Assembly (NCBI GenBank): GCA_964017195.1
Contig: OZ024894.1
Coordinates: forward strand, 36,758,923 to 36,822,922
Origin: Siderastrea radians
Lineage: Eukaryota > Cnidaria > Anthozoa > Scleractinia > Rhizangiidae
DNA: 64,000 bases
Direction of reading: 5' to 3'
The translations under genes and the position numbers were made by a program. The notes beneath the pieces are model-generated. The model was given only the letters and a program-made list of their open reading frames with translations, did no database searches and was not told the DNA's origin. Shown here piece after piece: positions 44,942-57,579 of the stretch (its first letter is position 1; every line of letters begins with the position of its first letter).

Positions 44942-45657
44942 TTACCACCATTTTCACTACTACGCGACTTTTCTTTTCAAAACACCTCTGAGCACTTTGC
45001 AATACGCTTCCGTCAATCATACCTTATATGGAAAGTGCGTGATGTTACCGAAATTGAATTGAGCTCGAAGGAACTAAAGATAGCGCCAAATTATCCCGTA
45101 AATTTGCACTGGCGAGTCATATATTGACTAGTAAGAGGCTTTAGAGTCGTTGATGTTGCAAGAATACTTCACGTTTGGTAGATATTTGTAAATAAATTTC
45201 GACATTTCTTCAGAATTAAATACCCGCTCGGTGGATTATCCTATGCGGTGGATGGTAAGCTTGCGTTTATTCTCGTGAATAAGTTAAACCGAAGTGTGAA
45301 GTAAAAATTCTAGCTTTTCTGGCCTGAAAATAGCATACGACATGTTATTCACCACGAGTATAAATCTGGCAATATCCTGAAGTGTACGAGGACGAAATTC
45401 AGGAGTGGATAGAGTATGCAACGGGAAAACGAATCATGGTCGGCGTGCGATCAACCGATTCGTGAAGAAAATGGGTTTTACAAGAAGAAAGGTATAATTA
45501 CGGGATAATTTGGCGCCATCCTTATTCCTTCGAGCTCAATTCAATTGCGGTAACATCACACACTTCCCATATGAGGTATGATTGACGGAAGCGTATTGCA
45601 AAGTGCTCAGAGGTGTTTTGGAAAGAAAAGTCGCGTAGTAGCGAAAATGGTGGTAAA
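44942..45657. mobile_element. Fold-back element copy 2 (deleted)
   Basis: Same termini as 29082-30878 (TTACCACCATTTTCACTACT and inverse), with the left arm mostly present and the right arm reduced to roughly 150 bp. It proves the first copy is a mobile family and not a unique palindrome. Confidence 0.78.
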
Positions 45658-46257: not shown

Positions 46258-46262
46258 TTAGA

Positions 46263-46293
46263 CAGTCCGGGATCGTTATCAATTTTGATAACC
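46263..46293 (+). repeat. Left TIR of the 11.3 kb transposon
   Basis: 31 bp identical to the inverse of 57544-57574. The inner part, GTTATCAATTTTGATAAC, is itself an 8+2+8 palindrome, a likely protein-binding site. Confidence 0.92.
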
Positions 46294-46308
46294 GTGTGAC
46301 GTCACATT

Positions 46309-46526
46309 ATGGCGGCCATTTCGGAAATCAGTGATTTTCGTACTCGGTCCCCTTTATTCGTTATTTGTTCGGTAATACTCGGACTATCTACCCATAGCTC
46401 TATTCGAGAAAGCCGAGGAAGGAATGAACTCCACGTGTGCCAAAGATGGCGGATGAATGTGAACGATGAAGAAGCAAATTTCACTCGCAAAGTGAAAGAA
46501 CACTTAAAATTCTGCGTCCGCATCAG
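46309..46526 (+). other. Probable 5' untranslated exon of the large transposon gene
   Basis: Open stretch ending GCATCAG before GTATGTTTTTCC, a good donor, while a pyrimidine-rich TTGTATTCCTAG acceptor lies at about 46906, 20 bp before the ATG at 46926. Joining the two puts a stop before that ATG, so the exon would be non-coding (with short upstream frames). It begins right inside the left TIR, suggesting the promoter is subterminal. Confidence 0.4.
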
Positions 46527-46925
46527 GTATGTTTTTCCACTTTGTCGTTAAATTTGAGTTGGTTAAAGAATTTTGTGGCGTCCTCAAAAATTATATCGTA
46601 ATCTTTAACCTTATTTCTTTCGATTTATCGTTTGTTTATCGTTGTGCACGATCTATTAAAAAAGTGCACTGGGGTATTTTGATTTGCAGTCCGATTGCAT
46701 CACTAACCGCCATTTTGTGTTCCTGTTGACTGAGTCACTTGATCCTTCGTGTCTAAGATGCTTAGTGTTAGATTTTTGTGGTAGTCACCTCGTAATGTTA
46801 TCGATGGAAATCACCTCGTAATGTTACGCAGCCTTTGAATTTCTTTGACAAATTTAGAAGCTTAAAGCTTTAGCTCACAGCTTCTTTAACTGATTGTATT
46901 CCTAGGTAAATGAGATGCCAATGAG

Positions 46926-48028
46926 ATGGCAGATGCACATAGAAAAAAATTATTAAACCTGTGTCGATTCTGTGCCAAGACTATTTCTAAAAGTGCAAGA
47001 CCCAAAGAGAAATTCAAGGATGACTTTGACCGGTATGGCGTTAATATTGAGGAAGACAATGGTGTGATTCATCCACCGAATGTTTGTCAGGGCTGTGTGA
47101 GGAACTTTTATCGCTCGAGAGATACAGCTTCAAGTTCTTCCATTAGTAGAGTCCCATTTACTTGTGAGCCCCACAAGGAAGACAGTGCATGTCTATGCAG
47201 TGGTTCAAGAACTAAAGCTGGACGACCAAGCAAGAAGAGAAAGCTACATGTGGTGGTCAGTGGGAGTGACACAGAAAGTGGGGATGATCAGACTGAAGAT
47301 GAATCAGAGAAAGAGTCATGCAACATTTTCCGCAGCGTTTTGGAGAACATACACCTTCTCGATAAAGAACTGGCAAGGGTGTTATGTCAGAGTATTTGCT
47401 CTCAGTTCGGTTTAGTCTTTATTGACCCTGCAGATTTGTTCACTTCGGTCAGATCTATTGATAGACAAATGGTTTTGCGTTTGGTTGAAACTATATTTGC
47501 CCTTGAGAGGGAGGAACTGAAAGCTCACAATTGTAACCTTAGTTACAAAAACATTGGGGAATTGCTGAAGTTAAATCCAGAAACTTGGCTTGCATCCAGA
47601 AACGTGCTCCTTAAAAGTGCAGTTGACGGTTTGAGTGACAGCCGAACAAAGCTTGTAAAAAAGGTTATGGCGGTTGACCACATGCATAGTCTAGTGAAGG
47701 CAAACTTCATAAGTCCCATCATGTTTGGATCAAACCTTGTAATGTACTCAATTGCTGGCAGCAAAATGTCAGTTGATATTTATGGGAAGCTGCATCCAGG
47801 GGGTCAGTACAAGGTTATGAAATCGTGGCTCAATGGGTTATCAATGGAAATCCCTGCTTTGCCAAAGAATGACATTTTAACTGCCATCGATAACGACCAG
47901 GTTCTGTTAAAAAAGTGGACGGTGCGCAAAGATAATCGCACTCAGATCAGCATCTTGACCAGTGTATGTTGTGCTGAGGTTGGAACCAAGGATGCAGTTT
48001 TGCAACAAGATGAAAAGCTTGCACCAAG
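46926..48028 (+). CDS. Large transposon gene, exon 1
   Basis: 367 codons plus two bases; donor AG|GTAATG. Carries the RAG1-N-like zinc region and the LSYKNIGELLKLNPETWLAS helix-rich part, ending CCAEVGTKDAVLQQDEKLAP. The start is the first ATG after a splice acceptor and precedes the conserved zinc region by 12 residues. Confidence 0.85.
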
Positions 48029-51000
48029 GTAATGCATATAACTCTGACTAATAATGTTGACTGTTTCTTGTTCAGTAAATGACTCTCTCAATACTGTAAT
48101 TTTCAAGCCTGACCACGCCACCCCATGTCCCCCATCCTCCCATGTTACTGTTTTGTGATTTTTGTTTCAGTCCATGTTCTAAAAAGATGTGAAATTTTGA
48201 AGGGTTTTTTAGCCCATTTTCTGAAGCTAAGGGACAGCAAATGCTGCCTGTTTTCCACAAAAAAAAAATTCATTGAAGAATGAAAGACTAGTCATTGTTC
48301 TTCTGTCACTTGCTTGAATGTTGTAAAATCATTGTATACTTGTGAAAGATACACTTGCTAAAGAAAGATTTAGTTTCAGACTATAGTTTTTTGTGGCTTG
48401 TAGTTGGACATTAACAGTAAATACATTTACATGGATGAGTGTTGTTTGTCACTGACTTAGAGCAGTTTCCATTTAGTGTCCAAGGGAATTCACATTTGAT
48501 TTACAAAAACTTTTGCCACTCTTGCGGCCAATTAGAAGAATAAACCTTGCATGCCTTTTCCCGCACTTCCAAGCCCTGACTACATTTATTTGCTTTGAAT
48601 TCTTATTGGTTTGTTGCATTGTTTGCATCCGTTGTGATAGTCCAGGTTGGATAGTTTGGTTTTGGTTTTATGACACTTGACACTCAAGCACGTGCACACA
48701 AACATGTTGCATGCGTGCATACATACTTTAGTTGAAATTGCACTAATCTAATTTTGTCGTAAACAGCAAATGGCCCAACAGACTGGCAGAGGCCAAGATT
48801 GACACATTGAAGAAACAGCAGCTTGTTGAGGATTGCTCTGCCACCGCTGATGATGTCATGCTCCTACGTAAAGAGGTAAATGAGGAAGACTAGCTGGTAA
48901 TTTGAGACAATTACAGGTGTACAGAACTCTTCACAACCTGGGCTTATAACTTCTGAATACTACAACAAATAAAAATTAAAATACATTTATATTAATTGAA
49001 AACACTCCAGTATTTTAAAAAAGATATAACTTGGTGTAAACTATCAATGCTTTTTTAGCCCTGAAATAAACAGTTGGCCCAATGAAACAAAACCTCTCAG
49101 TACAAAGTGGCATGTTTTAGGGTTTTGCTGGTTTAGCTTTTTGTTTGCACCCTGTAGTTTGGTGGATGTCTAAGGAAAAACAATCTATCTGGTTGTATTA
49201 ATTATTAAATATTAACTAAAAAAATAAACAAATAAAGAAGATTTTTAGTGGGTTTTCATCCACTGTTTCCAAGTTGAGTTGGATTTTAGCAATGTTGGTT
49301 TTTGTGGAGGGAGGAAAACTGGATTACCCAGCGAAAAATGCTTGGAGGAGGGACGCGAACCAACAACTAACTCAACCCACATATGGCATCATCTCTGGAG
49401 TTTGAACCCGTTCCAAATTAGAGGGAGCCGAGCGCTCTTACCGATATATATATATACAGATTAACAAATTGAATTCCTCATATATATATTTTTTTACCTA
49501 GAACAAGAAGATGATCCATGATATCCTCCACAAAGTTGTGAAAGAGCAAACAACTGCAGATGGAAGTTGGACAGATGACATACACCTAAGGGTGGCAGAC
49601 ATGCGGTCAAAAGAGGGGATGCGTGTGTGTCCAGTGTGCAACACCAGCATGCCAAAGACAAAACGGAAGTGCATTAATCAAGACTGTCGTGTCAGTCTAA
49701 AAAGTGCTGAACAAGAAGCCAGTGGTACTGATATCCTTGGGACTGCACTGATTGCCCCTGTCCGCTCGTTTCAGCACAGAGTGCATGAGACCTCACTTGG
49801 TTTTCAAGTTCAAGAGAATAAAGCATTTGTCTTCAACAAGGAGGAAGTCTGGGAAACACATGATGAATGAACTGATGTCCCAAGTAGGCATCCTGCATCT
49901 CCAATCAAAGTGGAAACATATGACCCTGTGTTCGTGGACCCCAATTCCTTTGACTCAGTAAAAGAAGTCCTGCGACAAGTTGGTCATGCATCCTCTGTTA
50001 GCCGGTACCACCCAAATGTGCCAGATGCAAGAAAATGGCTCAGTGTAACCATGGATGGCTCTCCCTACTTGGTCAGCAGAAAGGTAATCGACACAGTCTA
50101 CTTGTGTTGTGATTGTGAAGCAGAAGTTTTAAAGGCAGACCAAGATGACCACTGTTTCAATGTACATCGTGGCCGCAGGGTTAAGTTTGTTAAAGAGTTT
50201 GACTGGGTGCTACTGCGTATTGGCAAACTTCACCTTGAAATGAACATGGCCAGGACATTCACCAACCATAACTGGGGTGTGTTCATGTCCGAGCTGACCA
50301 AAGAGTTGGGATTCACTTCTGAAGCAGCACAGAAATATGTAAAGAAATGCTCTGACCATCACAAAACGATGTCCATCCTGAAAGTGGCCCATATTGGATT
50401 CTGGTACGAACTACTTGTACCTTACGTACGTAGTCGCCTTACTTCAGGAGCTCCCATTTCGGTGAACGACTTCCTGTATGACTGGGTTGTACAAGTGGGC
50501 TGGAAGTATCCCAACTACAGGTACATCTTCAACACTACCTGGTCATACCTGATGGGCATCCAATTACTTCACATCGGAGTGAGAAGAAACAATGCTGAGT
50601 ACATCAGGGCAGGGCATATGGCCTTTGCACCACTGTTTCACAGGAACTGTGCTTCTAAATATGCATTGATTGATTTGCATGATAGGTAAGTGTAAAGGTT
50701 GTTGTATTGTTTGGTCCATAATGAGCATTTTTAGAAAATATCCATACACCCCATGGAAGGTTTTTGATTTGTACCCCCTCCCCTAAGCAGTGTGTCCAAA
50801 GGATTTTTTTCTGACAACCATTCATTTATATTGCAGTTTACATAAATAATTTAATTTTTAGTTTGACTTGGCAGAAGTTCCGGTTTGTCCACAGAAAATG
50901 ATTAAAAAAATCAATTCATGGGGGGGTACATGGGGGTACATGGAAGGGAGTTCTGTATGCCTTAGAGGGGTTACACAAGGATTCATGAGGTCACAAGGAT

Positions 51001-52922
51001 TTTGCTGTTTAAGGTTAATTCTTAGCTGAGATTATTACTTAGTGCCTTTACCCACACTCAAAATGATCCTGTAAAACTATGAGGAAGATATTGAATAACT
51101 TTTTTTTTCAGGGATAGCTTACCATAATACATGTATTTTTGGTAATACTATTATTGAAGACAGGATCAAAACTTGAAATTGGCCCAATTTGCATTTCAAT
51201 CCTTGCCATCTGCGAGTAATGAATTTGGTTCAATTCATGTTCTTCAAAGAATATTGTGCATCTTCATTGATCTGTTATAGTTATAGTATGTCTGAAGTGT
51301 ATCAAAAGGGTAGGGAAGTTTAAGGACTTTTTGTTTTGTTTTACAGCGTGGACCGTGCGTCATTTCCCCCAGAGCTTGCCAAGTTTGTGACTAACACAGA
51401 GTCAATTAGCACCTCTGGTAATCCTAGCAAGGGAGAATGCATGGATGCAAACCTCGAGGAGAAAAATAAGGAGTCCAAAGTGTGGCAACATGGTGGGATG
51501 ACTGCCCTTGACTGGTTGAGAATCTTTCGCAATCTTGGAAAACTAACCAGTGTAAGTCTCAGTGCAATGTTATAGTTCTGTAATGAGGTATGGATATTGA
51601 AATCCTGTGCAGCTTTTCAAGAGTTGAATGTAGCTTTTAACTGCCTGCTTGGGGTATTACCCTACTCAAATTCTCTACTGTTTGAGGGGCTTTGATTCCT
51701 GTGTTTGACATGTGGGTTTCTCTTAGGACACCTCCATGTGAAAACATCACCATCACTAGCAATTAACAGTTAATCTTGTATACTATATGTATATCTTTTC
51801 TAAACAAGTACTTTCCTGATCATTCCTCCAGGTAAGAGATTGGCTTTTATCCCTAGTTGGGATGCGTGATCCGAAGGAAGATGCTGCTATTTCACGAAGG
51901 AAGTATGATTTTAAGGAAGAAGTACTGGCATGGAGAATCAAGCTTCGAAGAGAGGGGTAAGCTGTTGTCACCTTACTCAATGTACAAGAGGCCTTGCTTT
52001 CTTTATAAAGTATGGGAAGTTTGTTTGTTTATTTTCCATGTATTTATTTGTTTGTTTATTTATTATATATTTAATTACTCATTCGCTTGGGCTTTTAACT
52101 TTTAAAATGTAAAACACAAGTTTTGTCAATTGTGGCTCTAACTTTTAAGTTTGTGGATGAAATACTTAAATGTGGCCATTCAAATGAAAGGTCTTGAGCA
52201 GTGCATATCTTTCTGTGGTGTTATTAACAAAATGGTTCTGTAAACTTGTAAACTTTTAAGTCTGTTAATGAAATCCTAAAGTGTGACCACTCATCTGAAA
52301 GCTATTTAGTAATGCTCTCCAATGGTGCTCTTATCAATATTTGTAATTAATTTTTTACAAAAGTAAATTTGAGATTTTCTTCCTTTGTTCTGAACTTGAA
52401 TTTTGTTTTCAAAGTACAATGTAGTCTCCTTATTTTATCCTTATTTTATTTTATTGTTGGTTCAATTACAGGTATTTAGTAGGCAACCAGGATCAACATG
52501 TATCCCTCAGTGGTGCTGTTCTCGACACAGGCCTTTTGAAGATGGACGAGTCACTTAAGGAGAATAGGAGGCAACTGTTACTTCAGCACTTTGTGGAGGG
52601 GAAGTCAAGATCAGACATACCCATAACTACTGTATACACCACAGAGGAAGAGAGGATCCAGGGAGAAAACATCAACAACGCTTCAAAGGCAGAGATCCTC
52701 CAGAGAGCAGAAGAGAAAATCAATCTGCTCTCTGACGAAGAGGCAAAAGGTGCACTCCACAGTAAACTGTATGAGTTGAAGAGGAAGCAGTCTGTATTAA
52801 AAAAAGAAATCCTTATCGCTTTCTTCCATGAAGTTTGCGAAGAACTGAAGCAGAATGTAGACACTGAGGAATTCTTAGTTTTTAATAATCAGGATGAGGA
52901 TAAAGACTGTACAGAGCAATGA
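46926..52922 (+). CDS. Large zinc-domain protein of the transposon, candidate transposase (one in-frame TGA)
   Basis: Six exons join in phase: 46926-48028, 48767-48875, 49502-50685, 51347-51551, 51832-51956 and 52472-52922, giving 1058 codons. The N-terminus (about 13-100) has CRFCAKTISKS, IHPPNVCQGCVRNFYRS and EPHKEDSACLC, the Cys/His layout of the RAG1 N-terminal zinc dimerisation region. An acidic linker (DTESGDDQTEDESE) follows. Mid-protein there are FDNDQ-like IDNDQVLLKKW, a zinc ribbon CPVCNTS…CINQDC, LSVTMDGSPYLV, LCCDCEAEV…HCFNVH and GKLHLEMNM; D in TMDG and E in LEMN are candidate catalytic acids, my inference only. The last exon is charged, coiled-coil-like. Codon 527 is TGA (49868-49870), with clear homologous-looking sequence on both sides. 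From memory similar proteins are multicopy in corals, without a named function. Confidence 0.8.
48767..48875 (+). CDS. Large transposon gene, exon 2
   Basis: After GTAAACAG; reads SKWPNRLAEAKIDTLKKQQL then CSATADDVMLLRKE; donor GTAAAT. Phases 2 and 0 agree with exons 1 and 3. Confidence 0.75.
49255..49445 (-). mobile_element. SINE-like remnant with conserved GAGGAAAAC-type core
   Basis: GGAGGGAGGAAAACTGGATT…CAGCGAAAAATGC… followed by AACCAACAACTAACTCAACC resembles the conserved central domain found in many invertebrate SINEs (Nin-type, as I remember it). It lies in intron 2 of the large transposon gene, next to a TA repeat. Confidence 0.38.
49502..50685 (+). CDS. Large transposon gene, exon 3, with in-frame TGA
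   Basis: After TTTTTACCTAG; 394 codons. The frame is continuous across TGA at 49868-49870 (…VWETHDE stop TDVPSRHP…VETYDPVF), so a single nonsense change interrupts it. Carries the zinc ribbon, TMDG, CCDC…HCFNVH and LHLEMNM blocks; donor AG|GTAAGTG. Confidence 0.8.
51347..51551 (+). CDS. Large transposon gene, exon 4
   Basis: After TTTTACAG; SVDRASFPPELAKFVTNTES … LEEKNKESKVW … LDWLRIFRNLGKLTS; donor GTAAGT. Confidence 0.75.
51832..51956 (+). CDS. Large transposon gene, exon 5
   Basis: After TTCCTCCAG; VRDWLLSLVGMRDPKEDAAI … RIKLRREG; donor GG|GTAAGC. Confidence 0.72.
52472..52922 (+). CDS. Large transposon gene, exon 6 (C-terminus)
   Basis: After CAATTACAG; YLVGNQDQHVSLSGAVLDTG then a Lys/Glu-rich, coiled-coil-like tail ending NNQDEDKDCTEQ and TGA at 52920-52922. 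Confidence 0.8.
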
Positions 52923-54489
52923 AAAATTGTGTGTAAATATTATTGATTTTATCTATTTTATTAGTGTACATTGAACTCTAGTCATGATCATGGCCCAGAC
53001 CTTGATAATCCAGACATTTTTCCAGTCCCAATTTTTTAAATTTATGCTGAAACCTTTTCCAGCTGGAAAATTTGCGTGACCCGGGGACTCTTTAACTGAC
53101 TTGCATTGCATCTAAGAAAAATAATTAATCAAGGTCCATCGGTATGTAAACAGACTTAAACAAAATACAAAAAAAATATGTAAACAGAGTTGAACTTACC
53201 ACATGAAATAGGTGCATTTTATTTCTTACTGAAACTTTTATTTCTTACTGAAACTGGGTGTCTTTGGAAACTAGGCTGTTTTGATTGTAGACAATCAGTG
53301 TGGAGTTCAATCAAGATGGTATTTTATTTGGTTCTTGAAAGGTGCAATAAGTGTCTGATCAAAGTGGGAAATACATGTACCGGTAGAAACAGAAATCTAA
53401 ATGTGCATACATGTACTTCCTATATGACTTATGTGGGTGTGTTTGGCCTAATAGGCCTGGTAACATGCCATTTTGGTCTCAGCATAGGTGTATTTTTCTG
53501 TGTAATCTGTAAATGGATAATTAGTTTTGCCATGTTGGCATGAACTGTGGGGTTTAATGGTTAGGAAAAATAGCAAATTTAGGCCAGAAATTGGGTAAAG
53601 GTTTCAAGATGTGGGCCTTACTATTCAAACGAAACAAATTAGGTGCTTGTCTCTTTTACATCCCAATTGAAACTATGTAAACCTCTCCTAAAACAAGCTA
53701 CGGTATTTCAGGTGATAGGTACCAATAATTTGAAACAAGTGGAAATATTTCTGTTTGTCACTAAGGAGAAATACCATTTTGTGTTTTCATTTTCATTTGC
53801 GGTATGGGCAATAAAGGGACAATAAAGGGACACTTGAGTAAACGTTATCTTGAATATGTTTGTCTCAAAATGCAAATTCTCTTTACTGGTCTCTGTAAAT
53901 TTTTATTGGACAGATGTGAAGATGTAAAGTGTCCACTCAGAACTGAGAAAGTATTACATCAATAAATAATGATGTTTCGGAGTGTACTTGACAAAAACTA
54001 ACTTTGGTTTATTTAGAACCGTTGTCTAACTCCAACAATACTGAAGTCTTGTTCCAGGAAATAAACATACCCCCTCCCCCCGAAAGATTATTGAAAATTA
54101 CATGTATGAAGGGAAGATGAGGGATAGGGGTTTGGTGTCTCCTAGGCCAAACCTTTTTTAAAACGAAGTATGAAGCTACCCTGAGATTCCAAAGGGTTAG
54201 GACTAAAACAAACAGACCTTCACGAGCGCGAGAAGCGCGCTAAAACTTGTGACATTATTAAGAAGAATGAAACGCAAAAAACAGAAAAACGAATGGAGAG
54301 GAAAGGAGCGTTTCCATTTTCTCCACCCACGTTTTTATTTTCGTTTTTGCAACTTCTCACGCCACAAGCTTTCGCGAGCTTCTTGTGGAAGACTGGCTAC
54401 GAGAGGCCGAGGTATGGAAATTTTCTGAAACACACAATAGCTAATAAGGAGCTCGTACACGTTCGATAAAAAAAGTACAGTGTCATTCA
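52923..54489. other. Inter-gene spacer inside the transposon
   Basis: 3' region of the large gene (plus) converging with that of the MADS-box gene (minus). Frames at 53190-53543 and 53643-53825 lack domain or composition support. No further gene seen. Confidence 0.45.
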
Positions 54490-55289
54490 TTACTGTAAGT
54501 TGTTAAGCACGCTCTCGTCCGAAACAAAGGTTATTTCCGTTTGCTCACTCGTAGTAGGGGGAATTTCATTAAACTGAAGCCTTGCTCTTGGTCTTCTCCG
54601 CAAAACCTCCCGGACTGGGCTGGGAACGTTGGCTAACACTGATGTATTTGTCTGCCCTGGTGGTGTCCTTCGGCGGGTATTTGGAATATGGCCAAGCACG
54701 TTTGCAAGAGTGGGGGACATGTCAATCATTTCCCCTGGTGTCGCTGCCATGGGATCCACTGACGGTCCATTTTCTTCCGCACTGGCACTTTGTCCCTCTG
54801 TTTCTTCGGGAGATGGCGAAAGTAGTTCTTGTCCCACGGTAGTCTTTAGGATGCCATTTTCGTAGTCTGCCTTGAGACCCGGAGATCCCCACACGATGCG
54901 ATGTTGCTTCGTGGGTTGCACGATGAGAAAGACCTCCGCCTTGGTCATAACATGCAGCTTGAAAGCGTTTTTAAATAACGTTGCCTTGCGTCGCGATAAC
55001 GTAACCTTCCTCTGAGATGCGTTTTCTATGTATTCAATCTTTTCTCTCCCCCTAGTGTTCCTAGTTGTTCCACTTGCAACTTTGTCACTGGAAAGTAATC
55101 ACCACACGTATCACCGGAAAAGCATTAAGAACAACAATACTCGAACCAAAAGCAGCAAGCACGTACGGCAGTAGATCATTTCAGGTTATAAACAACTTGA
55201 TCAGAAACGTACCTTGTGTCATCTTGGAGCCCACTTTCAAGACAAATCACTTCAATCTCAGCAGTACTCTGGCCCACATTCTCTTCCAT
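54490..55289 (-). CDS. MADS-box (SRF/MEF2-type) transcription-factor-like protein in the transposon
   Basis: Two minus-strand exons, 55213-55289 (ATG at 55289) and 54490-55087, joined in phase 2 by GTACGT and TTTCCAG, give 224 residues. Residues 38-90 form a MADS domain: RGREKIEYIENASQRKVTLS, RRKATLFKNAFKLHV and AEVFLIV, matching the RGR-KI-FI-N-R-TFSKRK-KKA-EL-TL-VLLLV pattern of SRF and MEF2, about two residues shorter near KI. The rest is Ser/Pro-rich and acidic (LLSPSPEETEGQS; ARLQFNEIPPTTS), activation-domain-like, with no MEF2 or SAM motif. MADS proteins dimerise on A/T-rich palindromes. It is transcribed divergently from the 55556 gene, ATGs 266 bp apart. Intact frame. Confidence 0.85.
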
Positions 55290-55555
55290 GGTCAAAGGTT
55301 TTGGTCAACGAACAAAGAGGAATTCACAGAGTAATTTTTGGAGCAGTGCGCGCGAAATCGCAGCGGGTGAGTTTGCATGCTTGTCATGATTGGACATCGA
55401 CCAAACTTTGACAGTTTCTATTGTGTTTAGAGGCGATATTTTTTCGGCGGTTTGCCGCGAAACGTGAGTTTCATTCACTGTGCACCAGTCGTATACCGGT
55501 TTTGAAGTTCTATATTTGAGGTATTTCCATTCACTGAAGGAACATCCTGGACGAG
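55290..55555. promoter_or_regulatory. Shared divergent promoter region of the MADS-box and small genes
   Basis: 266 bp between two opposite start codons, with GC-rich islands (GCGCGCGAAATCGCAGCGGG, GGCGGTTTGCCGCGAAACG) in otherwise AT-rich DNA. No TATA box stands out. A bidirectional promoter is inferred from geometry only. Confidence 0.5.
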
Positions 55556-57081
55556 ATGAGTAAAAGAGGTAATACATATTTCCATAACCCATACGCTTAC
55601 AGCAATATGAAGCTATACAATTGTAGGTGAAGGTTTATTACAGTGGCTAGCCGGTTTGTATATTGACACATATTCATTCCTGATTCATTCTTTAGGCAAT
55701 CCAAGCGAGCAACAATCAACTTTAAGAATTACTTGTGGACAAATCAAAGGGTAAGGAAAATTGCTTTAGATATAAAATCACATGAAGCTGCCAAGTTTAT
55801 TGCCTTAAGTGGTAGTTGTTTGAGGTCAAATCGAAGTTAGGCAATGAGATCGCGTAACCACGTGCGCTTCCATCATTTTGGTTATTACTTTTTCTCTTAT
55901 ACAGTTACCATGAGTTTAAAATCAAGGGTCCAGAAGGAACTCCATTTCACGTATATCCTGAAAATGGGAACGCAGACCCCTTCGCTTTAATGTGCGTCTT
56001 ACCGGATTTATCAGATTTACCCGAATCACTCCTGGACGTGCCGCTTGTTTCGAGGAGTGAGAAAAAGACATACACGTTGAGAGAAGTCGCTGGTCGGCAG
56101 TTAGGCCGGGTCCAGTATTTCCTCAATAGGGAGCTGAAGCACCTTCTCGACTGCGGGAAAATATACCGCATTGAAGGGTAAGTTGTTTATATTTTTAAAT
56201 CCAGGAACCAATTTCGAGAACAATAAATAGTGACCCAGAAGCAATCAGTCCGGAAATGCCAAGACTTCGTAGTTCATGTGTTTCACCGATGATGAAGTTT
56301 AATAGCGATAAAAATTTGTCAGTGAGTGTGCTTTTTACGCATTTAATACTTAATCCACATGCGATATCAGGCTACTGATCAAAATAAATTGTCTCGTAAA
56401 ATACGAGGCCAGCACTTCCAGTGACAGAACGTTTCCCATGTACGCATACAAGTAAACTGAAGTGTAACACAAACAAAAGCAATTTTCCTGTACTTTTTGT
56501 ACCTAGAAACATAACAGGTCAGCCTACAACTACCAAACGAACACCAGTGCACCAGAAATGGAAGCGAAATGTCCAACAGGGAGGAGGAGCGTTTATTCCT
56601 TGTGAGTGGAAAGTACGTTGTAAGGGAGAATGCCTAGAGGAGGTAGAGAACAGGCTGAAATTGGCCCTCGCAGAAATGGGAAACGAGGGATCGGGCATGT
56701 CTATCGAGGTATATCTTCTATATCTTCTATAGTTCTATAGAGAAATTTTTGGTTCTAAATCAACTTCGCACATGCAAACATGAACAATGACAGTCACAAT
56801 AGGAGGAGGTGCGGGATTGCGGAAAATTAATTCAGAGTTTAAAAGAACGAGGCATATAACAAATGTGCTGTTTTGTTGTTCTTTTGCTATTCAATGAGAT
56901 GCAAATGATGTGAAGCGTTTTTCTGCAATCCCGCACGTTTGTCACGCGTTTGTGAAAAAAATATAAGCTGTATTGTCGTTTGTCACGCATTTATGGTCAT
57001 GTATTTATGGTGATTATTTCGTTTTTATTACAGATTTCTGAGCGCTCACCTTCCCTGGCAAAGAAGAAGAAGCAAAAGTGA
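55556..57081 (+). CDS. Unrecognised 196 aa transposon protein (five exons)
   Basis: Exons 55556-55568, 55696-55750, 55905-56177, 56507-56708 and 57034-57081 join in phase with good splice sites (RG|GTAATA, GG|GTAAGG, GG|GTAAGT, GAG|GTATAT; acceptors TTCTTTAG, TTATACAG, GTACCTAG, TATTACAG). The protein runs MSKRGNPSEQQSTLRITCGQ, then YHEFKIKGPEGTPFHVYPEN, a helical YTLREVAGRQLGRVQYFLNR segment followed by ELKHLLDCGKIYRIEG (winged-helix-like: helices then a short strand), and a basic KKKKQK tail suggesting nuclear location. A poly(A) signal AATAAA lies near 57111. I do not recognise the family. Intact frame and shared promoter with the MADS gene suggest a role in the element. Confidence 0.7.
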
Positions 57082-57543
57082 CAACAAAATGTAGACAAAT
57101 TAAATGAGTGAATAAACGCTGTGTTAATAAAATAACCGATTTGTACCTTCACTTGTCATTTCACTCAGAACAGTCGTTGCTTGAGATTACTTTAATGTCG
57201 TATCACGGCTGCAAGCAGAGTCTCTTTCAATCTTCCTCCGATATTTCTAGATCGGAGACTCTACTCGCGGAAACCGAGCTGGGTCGATAAAGTATTCGAA
57301 ATTCATGTCACAGCTTTTGGAAATAACTTCTGGACAATAATAATATTCTCAAATACTTTTCTTTCCATATTTCTGTAATACAAACATGAAATTCACTCGA
57401 AGAAAGCGCAGTCTAACTGCTTCTTCCTTTCCGAAATCGTCTCGCGTTTGTCCGCCATATTGACTTTATTGTTGATGCTTCGCAAATAGCGTCACGTGCA
57501 CAAAACTCTGAGCAGTGATTGGCCAATGGTTTGTTTTGGACTG
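57082..57543. other. Right subterminal region of the transposon
   Basis: 3' flank of the small gene; contains CCGCCATATTGAC near 57450 which, inverted, echoes the ATGGCGGCCATTT near the left end, and a GCCAAT box. No gene. Confidence 0.4.
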
Positions 57544-57574
57544 GGTTATCAAAATTGATAACGATCCCGGACTG
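57544..57574 (-). repeat. Right TIR of the 11.3 kb transposon
   Basis: Exact inverse of the left TIR, followed by TTAGA. Identity ends one base inside and at the target duplication outside. Confidence 0.92.
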
Positions 57575-57579
57575 TTAGA

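Follow-up and report, generated by a model that had tools for sequence, protein, structure and literature searches.

A Three-Gene DNA Transposon, Probably Cut-and-Paste, from an Apparently Undescribed Superfamily in the Coral Siderastrea radians

Structure of the Element

The stretch of DNA analyzed here, called the window throughout, comprises 64,000 nucleotides of the coral Siderastrea radians (C8:36758923-36822922, GenBank contig OZ024894.1) in a genome of 804,772,777 bases and 439 contigs. It contains an 11,312-bp element (window positions 46263-57574) that we interpret as a DNA transposon moving by cut-and-paste and belonging to a superfamily that appears not to have been described, a reading to which we give a probability of about 0.86. 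The element has discrete ends and 5-bp duplications, short deletion copies in the genome share its ends, and other lineages carry related ends together with the same three genes.

The two arms of its terminal inverted repeat, at 46263-46293 on the forward strand and 57544-57574 on the reverse strand, are complementary at 31 of 31 positions (CAGTCCGGGATCGTTATCAATTTTGATAACC), and they are flanked by the target-site duplication TTAGA at 46258-46262 and 57575-57579. A repeat finder reports arms of 32 bp, the additional pair falling within the flanking TTAGA. Apart from these two arms, a scan of the window for the terminus, allowing up to 8 substitutions in 31, gave no further copy. Between the ends lie three spliced genes, A (forward), B (reverse), and C (forward), with six, two, and five exons, respectively, the first exon of C being uncertain. 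The preliminary description of this locus, which had recognized a complete DNA transposon and three spliced genes, is borne out in both respects. A short open reading frame beside the left end (46309-46526) is not in frame with gene A and was treated as leader.

Copies in the Genome

The exact 31-bp terminus matches the whole genome 69 times (29 forward and 40 reverse), and the same pattern read backwards, used as a control, does not match at all. A DNA search with the left end gave at least 39 matches with 85-92% identity, many of them accompanied by a matching right end; this count is a lower bound, as 39 of 5990 first-look candidates were scored. The short copies (five measured) are 1964-1976 bp long and retain 527 bp of the left end (~91% identity) and ~570-620 bp of the right end (76-87%). 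Nearly all coding sequence is gone from them, and the longest frame in the one that was translated has 110 residues.

An exact 5-bp duplication surrounds 13 of the 15 short copies with both ends read. These comprise five of the eight loci cut by the search (4/5 duplicated; the three with one end only were excluded) and ten further copies that were fetched (9/10 duplicated), the two exceptions being L003 and the copy at C2:15583k. Given a chance of ~0.0013 per site from base composition, 13 or more matches in 15 would occur by chance with a probability of ~2e-36. Taking these 13 duplications together with those of the two full elements, there is a weak tendency to T at position 2 (10/15) and A at position 4 (8/15). 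Pairwise identity is 99.9% for L002 and L003 and 99.8% for L004 and L005. Because L004 and L005 are nearly identical yet lie between different duplications, recent movement is indicated. Coral miniature inverted-repeat elements were considered and are not the same elements, those of PMC2872659 having TTAA duplications.

The element is thus almost certainly a transposon. Coincidental ends around ordinary single-copy host genes, the contrary explanation, are refuted by the 69 termini and 13 duplications above, by a second element, again with ends and the full set of three genes (see below), and by the separate existence of host SRF and MEF2 genes. The preliminary description had proposed looking for the terminus in this genome and for 5-bp duplications at its copies; both were found, the latter also at both full-length elements, and the possible refutation that it named, absence of a second copy or single-copy host genes, failed.

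A Second Full Element and Further Lineages

A genome search with exon 3 of gene A gave 22 matches at ~13 places, several with stops. Ten of these places were scanned for inverted ends accompanied by an exact 5-bp repeat, tolerating no more than 3 mismatches in 16 and requiring each of the four bases to be represented. A 0-mismatch pair turned up at one place; at seven others the only pairs had 3 mismatches, which are chance-like, and two gave nothing; the same scan recovers the window element at 0 mismatches, plus two 3-mismatch pairs. The second full element (C5:14880317-14890136) is 9820 bp long and has the duplication GCTAC. Its ends, CAGTCCGGGACATATCCA(T/A)TTCTGGATATA (CAGTCCGGGA and a dyad), are related to those of the window element but different. 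It holds genes A, B (reverse), and C in the same order as the window, with 52% identity in gene A. The C5 model of gene A is open across 1027 codons and its last three splice junctions match those of the window gene; it is without the small second exon, and the first splice junction is therefore uninformative.

The terminal CAGTCCGG also starts the 5' side of the gene A copies at C1:25151371 and C2:38811680, the far ends of which were not found. The A-B-C order recurs at C1:25760-25768k and C1:25152-25174k, two further lineages in all keeping the arrangement; at the second of these places B and C lie outside the stretch extracted around gene A. The copies at C1:25763k and C1:25927k, whose ends were not found, are ~99% alike and were counted as one lineage. 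Gene B also matches 11 places that share a frame of 166-180 residues at 31-33% identity. One of these was read (L071, C5:20559850-20560480) and is a C5-type deletion product with part of gene C joined to gene B. C3:41108595-41109298 and C2:32906923-33005644 hold relatives near the lineage of the window, namely of gene B (62-69%) at one place and of gene C (52-53%) at three places with stops.

Gene A Encodes a Putative Transposase

Gene A has six coding exons on the forward strand with GT-AG splice sites, at 46926-48028, 48767-48875, 49502-50685, 51347-51551, 51832-51956, and 52472-52922, the last one including the stop codon. Exon 1 is splice-consistent and has an open counterpart in the C5 element, and exons 2, 4, 5, and 6 follow the splice model. 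One of the 1058 codons is an in-frame TGA at 49868-49870, in exon 3, owing to which the window copy is probably inactive.

Downstream of a RAG1-N-like zinc domain, exons 1-4 encode a predicted RNase H-like core related to DUF6589 (PF20231), a Pfam family without assigned function and without mention in the literature searched. Exon 3 is part of this DUF6589-related core. In the window pieces DUF6589 stays below cut-off (E 0.011, 14.9 bits against 27); among 24 aligned homologues of gene A, 13 match the family at E ≤0.001 (best E 4.6e-8), and the Lytechinus homologue P0005 exceeds the curated cut-off with 27.4 bits. A modelled homologue has its best fold matches in the P-element, Hermes, and ISCth4 transposases, and Foldseek alone gave no significant match for this model. 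A solved-structure sequence search with the gene A alignment returned only weak matches to zinc-finger proteins and a ribosomal protein (best E 0.21) and no transposase, and an NCBIfam search returned nothing useful. Relatives of gene A occur in cnidarians, lancelets, sea urchins, a sea cucumber, a hemichordate, and bivalves; an Acropora muricata protein is 55% identical across 41% of gene A.

The model places a first candidate catalytic Asp in the motif IDNDQ (47889-47891), which is Asp in 19 of the 20 members covering the position. A second would be that of DGxP (50054-50056), present in 24/24 members. The Glu proposed by analogy with the architecture of P and Hermes, in DxxLExxNK (51456-51458), would lie past a helical insertion, and is Glu in 19 of 21 members covering it. 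The preliminary description had seen no RAG1/Transib catalytic core. This holds as far as sequence goes, as Pfam gave no match to that core in the window pieces at E up to 1; a catalytic core as such, however, appears to be present in gene A in its DUF6589-related form. We consider it very likely that the gene A protein is the transposase.

Just past a core strand, the gene A family has a GxxH motif in which Gly and His are invariant (24/24). Together with the fold matches, this raises the question of whether the element is a far-out lineage of hAT (hAT5-like, with 5-bp duplications) or of the P element, and hence a new member of a known superfamily. Several points favor that view and weigh against an undescribed superfamily. 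The best fold matches are P and Hermes, and the ends start with CAG, as in many hATs. The GxxH of gene A is placed like the C/DxxH that PMC3706591 and PMC10045372 describe for hAT, P, MuDR, and Dada. In addition, hAT families with 5-bp duplications (hAT5) exist according to PMC12730594, which counts 24 Repbase superfamilies. On the other side, the first letter of the motif between the second Asp and Glu is G in 24/24 members instead of C or D, the duplication is not the 8 bp of hAT, and no solved transposase matched by sequence. Pfam includes models for hAT and P domains, and neither was found in the scanned proteins at the thresholds used. The same applies to the THAP and hAT C-terminal domains, the Pfam hAT dimerization domain being absent from the window pieces to E 1, from 7 homologues to E 0.1, and from 24 to E 0.001. 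Membership in hAT or P seems unlikely to us, albeit the strongest of the competing explanations.

Gene A might instead be a captured or domesticated host gene, with another, unseen enzyme moving the element. Its role is indeed a predicted one, and passenger genes are found in other superfamilies, such as TET/JBP in fungal transposons (PMC12730594), both of which count against gene A being the transposase. We nevertheless regard a host origin as very improbable: gene A alone among the genes of the element has a homologue whose model shows the RNase H-like fold of a transposase, whereas the products of B and C are small and of other kinds. Gene A is also enclosed by inverted ends in each of two divergent elements, and its loci are multiple, several of them decayed.

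The RAG1-N-Like Zinc Domain

The N-terminal zinc domain of gene A (46962-47114, forward strand; CRxC...HPxxxCxxC) resembles the RAG1_imp_bd or Chapa type. The Pfam match is below the cut-off of 23.3 bits in the window copy (E 0.021, 14.9 bits) and just under it in the C5 copy (E 9.8e-5, 22.5 bits). It is above cut-off in four homologues (P0001-P0004), from Acropora (24.8 bits), Branchiostoma (44.2 and 41.9), and Nematostella (24.1). The RAG1-N-like protein named in the preliminary description is thus supported through its relatives. The zf-AD model weakly matches the same region (P0001, E 0.00097; C5, E 0.17; both below cut-off), which would leave room for a wider kinship of these zinc domains.

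In a gene A tree of 27 rows, the window, C5, and C1 copies (the latter represented by one exon only) form one clade (100/100) with Acropora, Nematostella, two Branchiostoma, and one Ptychodera sequence. All four homologues above the RAG1_imp_bd cut-off fall in this clade. Outside it, P0006, P0007, P0009, P0014, and P0019, in which the N-terminus is present, have no RAG1_imp_bd match at E 0.1. The simplest reading would be that the domain was gained once inside a wider family of DUF6589-type transposases, an argument limited by the tree rows that lack an N-terminus (e.g., P0005, P0008, and P0010).

Genes B and C

Gene B is encoded on the reverse strand by exon 1 (55214-55289, splice model) and exon 2 (54490-55087), and its product is the MADS-box protein already noted in the preliminary description, of SRF type (Pfam SRF-TF, E 4.8e-11). 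Its best PDB relatives are MCM1 (3.4e-6) and SRF (~1e-5) vs. MEF2 at 0.0057. Searching the whole genome for SRF-TF yielded seven matches, of which one, on C3, is MEF2 as read from sequence, four lie on C6 at two places, and two are gene B of the window and C5 elements. The one C6 place that was read is an SRF gene with an intron inside the MADS box, and gene B is without that intron. The possibility that gene B was copied from the SRF or MEF2 gene of the host was rejected, both existing separately and the SRF place having its MADS-box intron. The two C6 places (C6:12016908-12035252) are ~18 kb apart and each is split into two matches, a tandem duplication or an assembly artefact.

Gene C has exons at 55556-55568, 55696-55750, 55905-56177, 56507-56708, and 57034-57081 (with stop codon), all forward and, from the second on, resting on the splice model; exon 1 is uncertain, as three alternative donors give an open frame. 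A Montipora capricornis protein (P0026) is 51% identical across 83% of gene C. The 3' part of exon 3 and the start of exon 4 weakly match HIRAN, below the cut-off of 24.7 in the window (E 0.036, 14.3) and C5 (E 0.078, 13.2), and the Montipora homologue has no HIRAN match at E 1. The structure model of a gene C homologue is poor (pLDDT, the predicted local distance difference test, 50). Gene C is perhaps HIRAN-like.

Between the window and C5 elements, the proportions of non-synonymous and synonymous differences (pN/pS) are 0.318/0.787 for A, 0.395/0.784 for B, and 0.382/0.923 for exon 3 of C. Synonymous differences are saturated and non-synonymous ones are not, and all three genes appear to be kept by selection. 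The preliminary description had treated the extra genes as cargo. Chance cargo was rejected here: because the order and orientation of B and C are kept in other lineages, they are not casual passengers.

Anatomy of the Ends

Within the terminal repeat lies a dyad (46275-46292) with the center TCAATTTTGA, 21.5 bp from the end and matching at 8 of 9 arm positions, which we propose as a dimer-binding box. Six ends from four lineages were compared, namely both ends of the window element, both ends of the C5 element, and the left ends of two other copies. In 6/6 the best or tied-best dyad is centered 20.5-21.5 bp from the end, its letters varying by lineage, with arm matches of 8, 8, 7, 7, 6, and 6 of 9. 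In shuffles, P is ~0.001 for the pair of window ends and 0.02 for the C5 pair, with 0.16 and 0.07 for the remaining two lineages; in these statistics the two ends of an element are not independent of each other. The CArG box CCW6GG does not occur in the window or the C5 element, and the dyad is CArG-like loosely at most. A MADS protein acting as a dimer, together with a dyad that diverges in sequence but keeps its place, would be consistent with co-evolution of protein and site, a hypothesis formed post hoc.

The left end has a palindrome, TGACGTCA (46297-46304), which we take to be of the CRE/ATF type. (T/C)GACGTCA is found ~34-43 bp in at 4/4 left ends, whereas neither of the two right ends examined has it within 45 bp; it could be part of the gene A promoter. 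ATGGCGGCC near the left end (46309-46317) and CCGCCATATTG near the right end (57452-57462), which are presumably YY1-like, may act as initiators or as repressor sites. Outside the element, a short way upstream at 45000-45598, lies another inverted repeat, possibly a further short transposon; its 74-nt arms are 95% complementary, and a second pair of arms, of 27 nt, is nested within it.

Discussion

We read the element as one that would work like hAT or P, probably without belonging to either, and as distinct from Transib/RAG. Transcription of gene A would start near the left end. Its protein would bind both ends, the RAG1-N-like domain and other zinc fingers contacting DNA or partner proteins. 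The RNase H-like DDE core, in which a helical insertion would separate the Glu from the second Asp in the manner of P and hAT transposases, would cut at CAGTCCGG...CCGGACTG, and the 3' ends would be joined to target DNA with a 5-bp stagger; the short copies would have moved in trans. More speculatively, a dimer of the gene B MADS protein might sit on the dyad ~21 bp inside each end, assembling or regulating the end complex, and the gene C product, possibly HIRAN-like, might work on DNA ends or repair.

A bolder and distinctly more tentative proposal is that of a new animal superfamily defined by CAGTCCGG ends with a central dyad, 5-bp duplications, a RAG1-N domain joined to a hAT/P-like core, and its own dyad-recognizing MADS protein in the transposition machinery, with N-RAG-TP of Aplysia as a member whose core has gone unrecognized. 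If true, the RAG1 N-terminal region would be a module swapped among unrelated transposases, and these elements a possible donor or sister source. DUF6589 gains a likely role as transposase. The RAG1-N/Chapa-type domain, so far credited to just a few transposons, is placed on another kind of transposase core, which opens the origin of the N-terminal half of RAG1 to tests in elements that were active recently. It is also unusual for a lineage of transposons to conserve a MADS-box gene next to the transposase gene, which suggests that the element encodes a regulator binding its ends.

Compared with known systems, no family testable here was found to unite a RAG1-N-like domain with a DUF6589/P-hAT-like core, a MADS gene, and duplications of 5 bp. 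No description of such an element was found in the literature searched, most subscription papers and Repbase Reports being outside its scope. The undescribed superfamily suggested in the preliminary description is thus probably correct, and we lean, with less assurance, toward a superfamily that has not been named. The P element, hAT (Hermes), and IS256-type (ISCth4) transposases have no recognized sequence similarity to gene A, and differ in having C/DxxH rather than GxxH and in the 5-bp duplication of the window element.

RAG1, Transib, and Chapaev resemble the window element in a RAG1-N-like (Chapa) zinc domain, which exceeds the Pfam cut-off in its close homologues, and Transib and RAG also in the 5-bp duplication, which could point to a divergent Transib/RAG/Chapaev (CMCT) member with an unrecognized RAG1-type core. 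However, the termini differ, and so does the catalytic core as judged by sequence. Transib and RAG termini are of the CAC type, in contrast to CAGTCCGG in the window element, the C5 element, and the left ends of two other copies, and Chapaev has a 4-bp target duplication compared to 5 bp here. We consider this explanation improbable. PMC4411706 (2015) states that no other known transposable elements contain the Chapa domain, and because of this statement its presence on a DUF6589-type core is, as far as found, a new association. N-RAG-TP of Aplysia is also a transposon with RAG1-N-like sequence, of which it is composed entirely by the description in PMC8355894. The shared domain alone suggests a possible link.

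Dada, Zisupton/KDZ, and Academ are likewise eukaryotic cut-and-paste superfamilies, with duplications of 6-7, 7-8, and 3-4 or 9-10 bp, respectively (PMC3706591, PMC12730594, PMC10045372). The fungal TET/JBP transposons also carry a further gene, in conserved order in some families (PMC12730594). Their cargo is a DNA dioxygenase that moves between superfamilies, whereas the family of the window element has kept its MADS gene within one lineage.

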